Assembly: GCF_001050475.1 (NCBI RefSeq)
Contig: NZ_CP012034.1
Location: forward strand, 434,001-498,000
Length of the DNA stretch: 64,000 nucleotides
Origin: Companilactobacillus ginsenosidimutans
Lineage (GTDB): Bacteria; Bacillota; Bacilli; Lactobacillales; Lactobacillaceae
Reading direction: 5' to 3'
In this document: in pieces, positions 13,205-59,166 of the stretch
Layout: the number at the start of each line of letters is the position of its first letter
How positions within the stretch are numbered: the stretch's first letter is position 1
Program-made: the position numbers and the translations under genes
Notes under the pieces: model-generated
What the model saw: only the letters and a program-made list of their open reading frames with translations
What the model was told of the DNA's origin: nothing
The model's database searches: none

Positions 13205-13219
13205 TTGGGGAAATATGCC

Positions 13220-13262
13220 GTCGCAAGAGCTGAGAAATATTCTTCGGCTGTGCGGGACGGTC
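13220..13262 (-). repeat. One half of a palindromic repeat copy split by the IS110 element
   Basis: The 23-bp GTCGCAAGAGCTGAGAAATA-TTC at 13220-13242 is the exact inverse of 14938-14960. The adjoining bases up to 13262 resemble the ACGTTCCAGCC segment of the repeat copy at 15283-15476. On the minus strand this is the 3' outer arm of a third copy whose other half lies at 14845-14960. Confidence 0.6.
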
Positions 13263-13400
13263 AGAGCCTCAGTGCGGTCTCGGACCTCGGTTCCTACGAT
13301 TAGTCAAGTAGGATATCTAAAAATGAGTGTATAACAAATAGTACTTCATAACTTGCATTTTAAATTATGGAGGTAAGTGTTAATATTCAATTTAGAGATA

Positions 13401-14618
13401 TCAGTTTATCTCTGTGGACTTCGAGTCCGTATATGCGTAAGCATATTTCTCTCTATGTTCGATCATAGAGAATAGACATTTCAGTGTCTTGTTCATACAA
13501 GCTACTGTGGCAACCTTATCCTTCTTGGGAACGGGTTGCTTTTTTAGTTTGTAATAGTAATCCACAATATGATTAGGTGCCGCTGATTGTTGTTTGATCA
13601 TGTTTCTTACTGCGATGAATAGTAGTTCTCGTGCTTTAGGATTCCCTCGTTTGTTTATATGATCCTTTCGCAAATACTGACCTGATTGATATCTAATAAG
13701 ATCTATCCCTACGTATGCATTCAGTTGATTCGCATTATCGAATCTAGTGAAGTCACCTATCTCACCCAATAACATAGCGGCTGTCATCTGGCCGATACCT
13801 GGCATTGAAGAAATAATCTCAAAGTCAGGAAGTTTCTTTGCCATCTCAATCATTTGCTTTTTCAACTTGTTCTTTTGGATAGTCAAATTGATTAATAGAC
13901 GCGAATAATATTGAACTTCTTGCACTTGAATATCGTCTACATGTACTGCAGGGGAACTGTTCTTAGCAAGACGTAATAATTTATCTGCATATTTTAAAGC
14001 ATTGTCTTTTGATATGAACTTATTGGTCTCGCCTATTAAAGCATTCTTTAGTTTTGTCCTTGAAAGCCCTGAAATCAAATCGGGATGAGGAAATGTATTT
14101 ATTGTAATCAGTGCTAGAAACGATGTTTTCTTGGCAAAGAAATGCTCTATCTCCGGGAAAGTCTGCTGGATTTCATTATGTAATTGTAAATTATACAACT
14201 TACGAGAATTCTCAACTTTCTCATAGAACCGACTCAGTTCTCTTAGTTTTAAATATTTTTCATCTTGAAATTGAACCAACCGATAGTGATTATTAAAAGC
14301 ACTCAATGCAATTTTATGTGCATCTTTATCATCGGTTTTAACCCGACGTAAATTCTCGGTTTTAAGATGTAGCTCAAGAGGATTTAGAAGGGCATATGGA
14401 ATTTTGTTCTCTCTGCAGAATCTCTCAATGGGACGGGAATATATACCTGTCGCCTCAAAGTAGAATGTTGGATTGGTTGCACATTTAACGGTGGCACGTA
14501 ATCTATCAAAGCCTAACTTGTTGTGTTGAAAATTAAATTCAGTAACACAGCTATCATTACGTTAATAGACACAATAGCTGTGTCCTTTGGAAACATCTAA
14601 AGCAATTATATCTGACAT
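13401..14618 (-). pseudogene. IS110-family transposase with an early TAA
   Basis: From the ATG at 14618 (GAAAGGTGATA upstream) the frame encodes a 405-codon IS110-type DEDD transposase. It shows MSDIIALDVSKG at the N-terminus, FEATGIYSRP, KTDDKDAHKIA, and a C-terminal Tnp domain with MPGIGQMTAAMLLGEIGDF, then GIDLIRYQSGQ (probable catalytic serine) and KRGNPKARELLF. Codon 19 is TAA (14564-14562), after ...HSYCVY. The rest is open to a TGA at 13403-13401. The 301-residue frame starting at 14306 lacks the N-terminal catalytic aspartate and would be inactive. It is the only non-rha gene in the window ending in TGA, in keeping with foreign origin. Confidence 0.85.
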
Positions 14619-14796
14619 GATTATCACCTTTCTAAAGCTGTCCGTATCAACACTTCTGATCTCATTTCCTATACACGGACTCGAAGTCCCACAGCCTAAA
14701 ACCTGATTAGAGAAATGAAGATAACGGAGACCATTTTTGAATGCGGACTATTATGTCCCGAGGCCCATGATCGGTCTTAGCTTTACCTTCAGTGTA
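14619..14796 (-). ncRNA. Possible bridge-RNA-bearing leader of the IS110 element
   Basis: About 180 bp of non-coding DNA lie between an upstream terminator (14797-14833) and the transposase start. IS110 elements carry a structured bridge RNA in a non-coding end that guides recombination. This leader holds the hairpin GGACTTCGAGTCC (14677-14689) and a GGAC/GTCC hairpin near 14750. No loop complementarity to a target could be established, so this is inference from family knowledge. Confidence 0.3.
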
Positions 14797-14833
14797 CAAA
14801 AAAGTTCTGAGTAAAGAATATTTACTCAGAACT
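14797..14833 (-). terminator. Leftward terminator shielding the IS element
   Basis: AGTTCTGAGTAAA (14803-14815) and TTTACTCAGAACT (14821-14833) form a perfect 13-bp stem. On the minus strand it runs into TTTTTTG, so it stops transcription entering the IS from the right. Confidence 0.75.
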
Positions 14834-14844
14834 AATCTTAGGTT

Positions 14845-14960
14845 GTTTTGGAGCCTTTCGAAGTTCGCGAAAGTCTTCAAACTCGCCCGGTGGTGTAAGG
14901 GTGGCTTTTCCGCCCTAACGCCACTTTCACTGCCTTCGAATATTTCTCAGCTCTTGCGAC
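14845..14960 (-). repeat. Second half of the palindromic repeat copy split by the IS110 element
   Basis: Read on the minus strand: outer arm 14960-14938, a hairpin GGCGTTAGGGCGG / CCACCCTTACACC (about 14922-14889), then a hairpin TTTGAAGACTTTCG / CGAAAGGCTCCAAA (14881-14846). The last closely matches the TTTGGAGACTTTTC / GAAAAGGCTCCAAA hairpin of the copy at 15283-15476. The other outer arm is at 13220-13242, beyond the IS. A 71-codon plus-strand frame covers this stretch but looks spurious. Confidence 0.6.
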
Positions 14961-15282
14961 TGGTGTTGTTTAATAAAGAAATTTATCTCGTGGTTAGTTT
15001 TGAATAACAATGGTATTGATATTGATTTAATTCGCACTTAATTTATCAGATGGATTAATTCCATGAACATTTGTATCGATAAAAGTGAACAATTGGTGCA
15101 AGTAATGAATTTGTTGAGTATTTGAAAATTGCTAATACAGTATGTAATGTCCATCAATTTACAATGTTCTCTTAACTCATTGTTCGTTAATCATTGAACG
15201 TAAAATATGGAGGAGCACTCTAACAAGTGAATAAAATATTGATGTAACACTGCGTATACGGAAAAAGACACCAACTTATCAA
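14961..15282. other. Intergenic stretch with a possible gene remnant
   Basis: No intact gene is visible. On the minus strand a 34-codon open stretch (15131 to a TAA at 15027) reads like a real protein tail, with HYLHQLFTFIDTNVHGINPS before the stop. It has no start and is closed upstream by TAG. I could not assign it to a family. GGAGCACT occurs at 15212 and again at 15283, where the next repeat begins. Confidence 0.3.
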
Positions 15283-15476
15283 GGAGCACTATCGTAGATG
15301 GAGAACGGAAATAGATTTTTGGCTCAGTGGCCAAATTATACTAAGTCGAGTGAACTTCTCGACTTAGTATAAGGTGCAGTTTGGAGACTTTTCGCCCTTT
15401 GAAAAGGCTCCAAATGTACCGGCGACGTTCCAGCCTAAAAAAATCTATTTCCGTTCGGAATCGGCAATAGTGCTCC
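15283..15476 (+). repeat. Palindromic structured repeat, copy 1
   Basis: A 194-bp unit able to fold end to end. The outer arm GGAGCACTAT (15283-15292) pairs with 15467-15476. An 18-bp perfect stem GAACGGAAATAGATTTTT (15303-15320) pairs with 15439-15456. Inside lie hairpin A, a perfect 15-bp stem (15336-15350 with 15358-15372, loop TGAACTT), and hairpin B (15380-15393 with 15401-15414, loop GCCCTTT). The same layout, with other stem sequences, occurs inverted at 58843-59017, and a related interrupted copy spans 13220-14960. No coding frame fits. It could be a mobile palindrome or a structured RNA. Confidence 0.8.
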
Positions 15477-19957: not shown

Positions 19958-19990
19958 TCTGATATAGTGAAGTTATTAATTAAATAGTTG

Positions 19991-20103
19991 GTTTTCAGGG
20001 CAGGGTGTAATTCCCGACCGGCGGTACAGTCCGCTACCCAGTTTTTACTGGTTGAATAGGTGAAACTCCTATACCGATAGTTAAAGTCTAGATGGAAGAA
20101 AAC
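19991..20103 (+). promoter_or_regulatory. FMN riboswitch (RFN element)
   Basis: The conserved RFN core is present: CAGGGCAGGGTGTAATTCCC, GACCGGCGGTA, AGTCCGC and ATACCGATAGTTAAAGTC with GATGGAAGAA at the end. Stem P1 is GTTTTC (19991-19996) with GAAAAC (20098-20103). The 3' arm of P1 can instead pair within AAAACAGA/TCTGTTTT (20099-20118), the likely switching helix. FMN binding should lower ribU expression. Confidence 0.93.
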
Positions 20104-20178
20104 AGAGGAAGGTCTGTTTTGGTACGCCCAAAATGGGTCTTTTTTTCTTCGGGGATCAACGAGAGAGGTTGATTGTTA
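20104..20178 (+). terminator. Riboswitch expression platform of ribU
   Basis: After the aptamer a short hairpin CCCA-AAA-TGGG (20127-20136) is followed by TCTTTTTTTC, a weak intrinsic terminator. Further on ATCAAC/GTTGAT (20156-20174) forms a small hairpin that places the purine-rich GAGAGAG ribosome binding site in its loop. Both transcriptional and translational control are possible. Confidence 0.55.
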
Positions 20179-58775: not shown

Positions 58776-58842
58776 TGATTGGTTAAAAATGTGTTAAGTT
58801 GTGAAACAAAGTTTTTGGTGGAGGGTGGGTTTGTGGAGGTAG

Positions 58843-59017
58843 CTTCCCGATTCCGAAAGAAAAGCGATTTTTGGTCTGGAACGTAGCTGGCCCACTTTAA
58901 TGCTTTTACAAGGGCGAAAAGTCTTAAAGCTGGACCTTTTACTAAGCTGAGAAGTTCACTCGGCTAAGTAAAATATAGCTACTGAGACCAAATCGCTTTT
59001 CTTTCTCCATCTAAGCA
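58843..59017 (-). repeat. Palindromic structured repeat, copy 2
   Basis: Inverse orientation to copy 1. A perfect 16-bp stem GAAAGAAAAGCGATTT (58855-58870) pairs with 58990-59005. Inside, read on the minus strand, hairpin A is TTTTACTTAGCCGAG-TGAACTT-CTCAGCTTAGTAAAA, and hairpin B is CTTTAAGACTTTT ... AAAAGCATTAAAG. Loop and junction segments (GAGTGAACTTCTC, GACTTTTCGCCCTT, ACGTTCCAG, TTCGGAATCGG, AGATGGAGAA) are identical to copy 1, whereas the stems differ and still pair. The remainder of the 58776-59160 gap shows no gene. Confidence 0.8.
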
Positions 59018-59166
59018 ACTATACAAATTGTATGGGCTGGATTGTCTGACTATTTTTACTGGTAGAGATTATTGAGGTTTATTTTTACAATTAAGTATTC
59101 GAGCTTTTAAGTCTATAAGTTGAGAAGTTAGGGTGTGTTTAATAGAAAATAATCTATATAACCCAC

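Follow-up and report, generated by a model that had tools for sequence, protein, structure and literature searches.

The window, by which is meant the whole 64,000-nt stretch of Companilactobacillus ginsenosidimutans DNA that was analysed, contains two closely comparable units of a family of branched palindromes. Copy 1 occupies 175 nt of the forward strand (15294–15468), as judged from its fold and from a match of 181.8 bits to the covariance model R1 described below. It comprises a closing stem with a GGA/GGA mismatch, an inner stem, and a three-way junction from which hairpins A and B arise. Fold and alignment place the left side of the mismatch, a 3 × 3 internal loop in the outer stem, at 15300–15302 and the right side at 15457–15459. 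In the fold, the left strand of the closing stem (15303–15324) has its partner at 15432–15456, hairpin A, with the loop TGAACTT, spans 15336–15372, and hairpin B spans 15373–15420; these elements correspond to helices 2–3, 5–6, and 7, respectively, of the covariation test. Copy 2 lies on the reverse strand (58843–59014; R1 match of 172 bits, together with its folds) and, like copy 1, belongs to subfamily 1. The earlier note had described two palindromic units sharing one layout at these places, an observation that is confirmed but that proves to have been understated.

The interval 15283–15476 is made up of the family core and a short extra palindrome, GGAGCACTAT/ATAGTGCTCC, which was met only at copy 1. 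Folded as RNA, this interval reaches −101.3 kcal/mol (z −13.4), and 58815–59030, around copy 2, reaches −73.0 kcal/mol (z −6.7); in each case none of 200 shuffled sequences did as well. Folds of the two cores as single-stranded DNA are likewise far from random, with z values of −11.8 for copy 1 and −7.9 for copy 2.

A third unit, absent from the earlier note and belonging to subfamily 3, lies head to head with copy 1 across a spacer of 337 bp. It is on the reverse strand and is split: its 5′ part, at about 14851–14962, was read from the sequence and gives an R1 match of 36.5 bits at 14803–14956, and its 3′ part, also read from the sequence, is at 13217–13293. Between them, at the approximate limits 13294–14850 on the reverse strand, is an IS110-type element (PF02371) that entered the unit between two of its hairpins. 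The 301-aa transposase ORF of this element (13401–14306) scores 129.1 bits against NF033542, under that model's cut-off of 140. The window also holds an FMN riboswitch at 19987–20107 on the forward strand (RF00050, 109.4 bits), which is its only Rfam match at the gathering score; for copy 1, Rfam returned only two sub-threshold miRNA matches, and no Rfam family corresponds to the palindromes. The earlier note had likewise recognized no described motif in them.

The palindromes are far more numerous than the window alone would indicate. When copy 1 was searched against the genome at the DNA level, 49 rows were returned, of which about 30 approach the full length. Model R1 was built from 31 aligned copies from this genome, and a renewed search with it gave 123 rows at E ≤1. 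Sixteen rows were dropped, 15 as opposite-strand echoes of listed units or hairpins and one as a 36-nt match with an E value of 0.93. There remain about 107 family places in the 2.59-Mb genome; they include partial units and units split by insertion sequences, and two of the retained rows are weak (E values of 0.007 and 0.22). Analyses that required a length filter used 98 of the 107. The typical unit is some 150–200 nt long, contains no gene, and has a three- or four-way junction, two or three hairpins, and short conserved flanks. Several subfamilies can be recognized, in which the letters of the stems are unrelated while the layout is common to all.

The outer-stem patch could be parsed by a simple pattern in 92 of the units in this genome. 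It reads GGA/GGA in 33, GGA/GCA in eight, and GCA/GGA in four; about 15 more carry GCA/GGA one base further inward, and at least six are fully paired at this point (GGA/TCC in three, TCC/GGA in two, TTT/AAA in one). By a crude count, G-S-A occurs in both arms of 69 of the 107 units. The non-pairing GGA/GGA patch, which had been taken to be conserved, is thus common but not universal. The unpaired ends of the unit read YYAG on the 5′ side and CGGCA on the 3′ side; the 5′ tag is YYAG in 77 of the 107 units and GTAG in three.

The fold has been retained through extensive change of sequence, with pairing maintained by changes on both sides of the stems. In the alignment of 31 copies, 98.0% of 1718 paired cells hold standard pairs, as against 82.3% after shuffling, and double-sided changes are found at 42 of the 56 pairs, as against 24.0. 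The covariation score is 0.456, compared with 0.163 for shuffled alignments, and none of 500 shuffles attains any of the five measures. When partners are slid by one to three columns, only 35–51% of cells are paired; the structure was predicted from the same 31 sequences, which are related to one another, and is therefore favored over the slid versions, but the margin is very large. The covariation that had been noticed between two copies is thus borne out in 31.

Paired changes might instead originate in mutation, if template switching in DNA hairpins used one arm to rewrite the other and selection played no part. Units whose outer mismatch has been mended, from one side or the other, so that the palindrome is perfect (GGA/TCC in three and TCC/GGA in two of the 92) are of the kind that such copying would produce. 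Some units also cap imperfect inverted repeats, about 75–250 bp long, that their own flanks form. About four of these are clear by eye (G000:C1 2505520, 2295747, 1290033, and 2405250, loci L033, L011, L104, and L098), and a weaker one is seen at copy 1, where the alignment begins 30–50 nt out and is AT-rich. Set against mismatched controls, four of 98 units fall above the 99th percentile, where 1.0 would be expected, and three, copy 1 included, fall above the 99.9th, where 0.1 would be; copy 2 stands at the 85.7th. That each insertion duplicates the host flank in inverted form is accordingly not put forward as a rule. Copying alone would also erase the mismatch that G-S-A in both arms of so many units preserves, and it leaves the dispersal of the family unexplained. 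As the whole account of the paired changes, template switching seems very improbable, although it may operate besides selection.

Comparisons among genomes demonstrate that the family disperses in discrete pieces, either one unit at a time or as two inverted units joined head to head, and very similar copies occur at unrelated sites. In G254, a genome of another genus, seven units at different sites are 93.5–100% identical (mean 97.4), and pairwise homology starts 13–117 nt before the unit and stops 30–78 nt after it. Four units in G031 are 98.2–99.4% identical, and the same genome carries a 435-bp doublet at two sites (91.5% identical) that consists of an inverted unit, a spacer of about 50 bp, and a unit. 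Six units in G035 are 80–96% identical; their homology mostly starts 45–110 nt before the unit and ends 6–47 nt after it, and it extends 317 nt upstream where two loci have a doublet in common. The edges are less sharp in G021, since some pairs there show weak alignments (66–76%) that continue for several hundred bases.

The sites occupied in the window can be compared with their counterparts in other genomes. At the site of copy 2, the flanking homologous blocks are separated by 80 bp in G035 and by about 425 bp in C. ginsenosidimutans, and the homologous site in G030 has no unit. The extra DNA, about 345 bp at approximately 58811–59158, includes the unit, its 3′ tail, and some 140 bp on the 5′ side, and is missing in these two genomes of the same genus; its edges are inexact, and no target duplication can be defined. 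At copy 1 the corresponding interval is 94 bp in G032, 157 bp in G016, and 223 bp in G035, as against about 2,350 bp here, a stretch that contains the split third unit, the IS110-type insert, the spacer, and copy 1. In G007 this site holds a unit of another subfamily, as read from its sequence. Only copy 2 offers a clean empty site, because the region of copy 1 has received several other insertions.

Insertion sequences have repeatedly landed in the units. One IS3-type element, which encodes an OrfA with HTH domains and an OrfB with rve, has its left end inside four units, each time at an identical structural position on the 3′ side of the loop in the inner stem (L043 668–2310; L046 679; L098 1857; L120 1310, reverse strand). 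The sample is biased, in that the loci were fetched for containing units. Its IS3-family transposase, which lies downstream of a unit in L008, resembled an autonomous partner at first sight, but a left end that returns to a single structural position in all four shows the element to be an insertion. A second kind of insert, which contains the hairpin GTTGGCGTAGCCAAC, occupies a similar place in units at G000:C1 1908546 and 1155527 (L108 and L103) and at the right of L046. The use of repeats as landing sites has a parallel in IS1397, which targets the REP-type repeats of E. coli.

It might be supposed that the units are MITEs of an insertion sequence whose DDE transposase moves them by way of the doublet ends. 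At its two outer ends, the repeated doublet does carry sequences that are inverted relatives of each other (CTGCCG... / ...CGGAAT), and several types of insertion sequence are present. This origin is nonetheless quite unlikely: single units have shared edges of their own, those insertion sequences whose junctions were read are inserted into units, and neither a parent element with the doublet ends nor a resident insertion sequence with the ends of the unit was seen beside the fetched units.

Most units in the C. ginsenosidimutans genome are singles. Where neighbors lie within 1 kb of each other, however, all 18 pairs are arranged head to head. Some members of these pairs are partial; one, at 2194998, has kept nothing but its outer stem. 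This remnant (G000:C1 2194998–2195040, L101) is 43 nt long and forms a nearly perfect palindrome. Gene context, scored with ORFs of at least 90 aa, is convergent for 36 of the 107 units, same-direction for 55, divergent for 12, and undecided for four, and in 43 of the 107 the end lies no more than 50 bp from a facing gene. Just five of the 18 doublets are flanked by facing genes on both sides, so the head-to-head order cannot be put down to gene context alone.

These contexts bear on whether the unit acts as a transcribed structured RNA, which either spreads through an RNA intermediate or stabilizes or terminates neighboring transcripts. The fold and its covariation are as in an RNA family, and the 43 units that end close to a facing gene would suit a role in transcript stability or termination. 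With the structure held fixed, the 31-copy alignment contains 26 G-T and seven A-C cells, an excess in the direction expected of RNA, but the riboswitch control for this comparison lacked the expected bias. Single stem mismatches counted over 98 units in a strand-neutral way give the opposite balance, 69 G-T to 93 A-C, subject to the same failure of the control: in the FMN riboswitch it was the antisense strand that was richer in G-U (5.4% versus 4.1%). The two counts disagree, and the comparison has no force as a test of strand. The units have no fixed orientation relative to genes and no match in Rfam. Reverse transcriptase (PF00078) was detected in 11 of 46 genomes, uncorrelated with the units and not in the genome studied here (G000), which also speaks against a group II intron or retron derivative. 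An RNA function is thus judged unlikely, though less so than a MITE origin. The earlier note had left the choice between structured RNA and mobile palindrome; the conserved fold and the mobile palindrome are supported, and nothing marks the units as an RNA, given that they occur in every gene context. The findings that could have overturned that note did not appear: further copies are numerous, the covariation is strong, Rfam has no matching family, and beside the fetched units there was no sign of a parent insertion sequence.

We therefore favor, as the probable explanation, that the units are non-autonomous mobile DNA, a gene-free branched palindrome moved in trans by a candidate enzyme; the family looks like a parasitic DNA repeat. 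Because the fold is so strongly kept, the putative enzyme would be one that recognizes DNA or RNA by its shape. The molecule that folds may be single-stranded DNA, a cruciform, or RNA. When a strand is exposed, the unit would fold, and an enzyme supplied in trans could read the mismatches, the junction, and the unpaired ends (5′ YYAG and 3′ CGGCA). It might then cut the unit or doublet and join it elsewhere, as has been proposed for REPINs. Selection on recognition by the enzyme would maintain the fold while the letters of the stems drift, and copies would be expected to survive where they are least harmful, often just beyond the end of a facing gene.

Obvious candidates for such an enzyme were sought by domain. 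The Y1 transposase PF01797 is present in 18 of the 36 Companilactobacillus genomes and shows no correlation with the units: it occurs in G006, where R1 has no match, yet eight genomes with at least 43 scored R1 matches lack it. For want of correlation among these genomes, a REP/IS200-type Y1 transposase is rejected as the mover. The IS91-type Y2 transposase was found in none of 46 genomes, but no control genome was positive either.

The comparison with known kinds of repeat draws on PMC2267715, PMC3733652, PMC3116915, PMC3049150, and PMC3496567; among the matches listed in searches of the open-licence literature, none described this palindrome family. As the REP, BIME, and REPIN families are presented in PMC3733652 and PMC3116915, they too are high-copy intergenic palindromes with subfamilies of alternative paired letters, inverted doublets that replicate, a short terminal tag that stays unpaired, and internal mismatches. 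The inverted doublet as mobile unit, a feature of REPINs, is found here both in the 18 pairs of this genome and in the 435-bp doublet present twice in G031. REP and REPIN, however, are simple palindromes or hairpins of 20–40 bp, in contrast to a branched fold of 150–200 nt, and their tag is GTAG, which the present family carries so rarely beside YYAG. REPs and REPINs with a RAYT have a cognate Y1 transposase, whereas no PF01797 protein tracks the units among the 36 genomes of the genus. Unlike those of textbook REPINs, the head-to-head partners in this genome often belong, as read by eye, to different subfamilies. The family works like a REPIN or BIME but is not filed as one, because it departs from these in the size and form of the palindrome, in its usual tag, and in having no Y1 transposase that tracks it within the genus. 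GTAG repeats are known from Proteobacteria, Cyanobacteria, Chloroflexi, and the PVC group, according to PMC3733652. The main text of that paper is without the words Lactobacill and Firmicutes.

Among Gram-positive bacteria, the BOX, RUP, and SPRITE repeats of Streptococcus pneumoniae are structured and interspersed, have been judged parasitic, and have been proposed to depend on a mobiliser in trans, as stated in PMC3049150. On the description given there, the only basis of the comparison, BOX is modular (A, B, and C) and a parent insertion sequence has been proposed for it, whereas the present subfamilies differ as whole units and no parent was seen. PMC2267715 lists Efa-1 of Enterococcus faecalis (163 bp, 65 copies), described as two stem-loops lying side by side, along with bcr1 of the Bacillus cereus group (167 bp, 31 copies); both are intergenic. 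They too are set beside the family by description, as parallels in function, and an R1 search of 295 genomes of the order gave one marginal match (G260) outside the Lactobacillaceae.

The family is nearly universal in its genus. R1 matched 34 of 36 Companilactobacillus genomes, the exceptions being G006 and G034, and none of 24 others in the same search. At most 46 candidates were scored for each genome, so that copy numbers per genome are lower bounds. An order-wide search, with nine candidates scored per genome and stricter filters, found matches at 1e-4 in 13 of the 295 genomes: three of the same genus, nine of other genera of Lactobacillaceae, and the marginal one in G260. These results realize the earlier suggestion that further copies be looked for among Lactobacillaceae. 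It is possible, though we hold it only tentatively, that the units form a Lactobacillaceae-wide superfamily with a transposition system of its own, in which a protein not of the REP type would read the G-S-A-marked junction and move units and mixed doublets, and in which unrelated insertion sequences would land. If our reading is true, the genomes of well-studied food bacteria each carry up to about 100 copies of a repeat on which annotation is silent. The fold would point to a candidate enzyme that reads DNA or RNA shape, and so to a concrete problem to solve, and the units would lend themselves naturally to strain typing and to marking the landing sites of insertion sequences.

An exact 20-mer of the element was found in genome contigs of one Companilactobacillus record and one Clostridia MAG. 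In a C. mishanensis record the exact 20-mer is accompanied by a full-length R1 match (152.6 bits), and a stretch of 4001 bases from this record is 100% identical to G030, a genome of the same genus. In the Clostridia MAG (L168 6919–6938), the 20-mer is from the 3′ end of the element and is likely due to chance or contamination, because R1 finds no unit there. An 18-mer of the element had no match in viral contigs, and copy 1 had none among plasmids and phages; nor did L082 and L213 among plasmids, or L213 among phages. Relatives of the family are nevertheless carried by plasmids, namely pSF118-44 of Ligilactobacillus salivarius and pL1277-1 and pAWA2013_3 of Lactiplantibacillus plantarum (R1 scores of 63.6–105.1 bits). 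A 40-bp match in p3 of Lacticaseibacillus paracasei stops some 9 bp short of a gene for an IS5-type transposase. None of the nine matched plasmid records has an annotated feature under the match, in a gene table that is incomplete by its own account.

The preference for head-to-head order extends to other genomes. At 33 loci examined with R1, 14 of 16 neighbor pairs are head to head and the remaining two are tandem, a count that leaves out two opposite-strand echoes and the window. Two loci in G278, a genome of another genus, show a further arrangement (C4 201760–202481 and C5 138458–139048; L259 and L260): tandem runs of two to three units are followed by one that is inverted.
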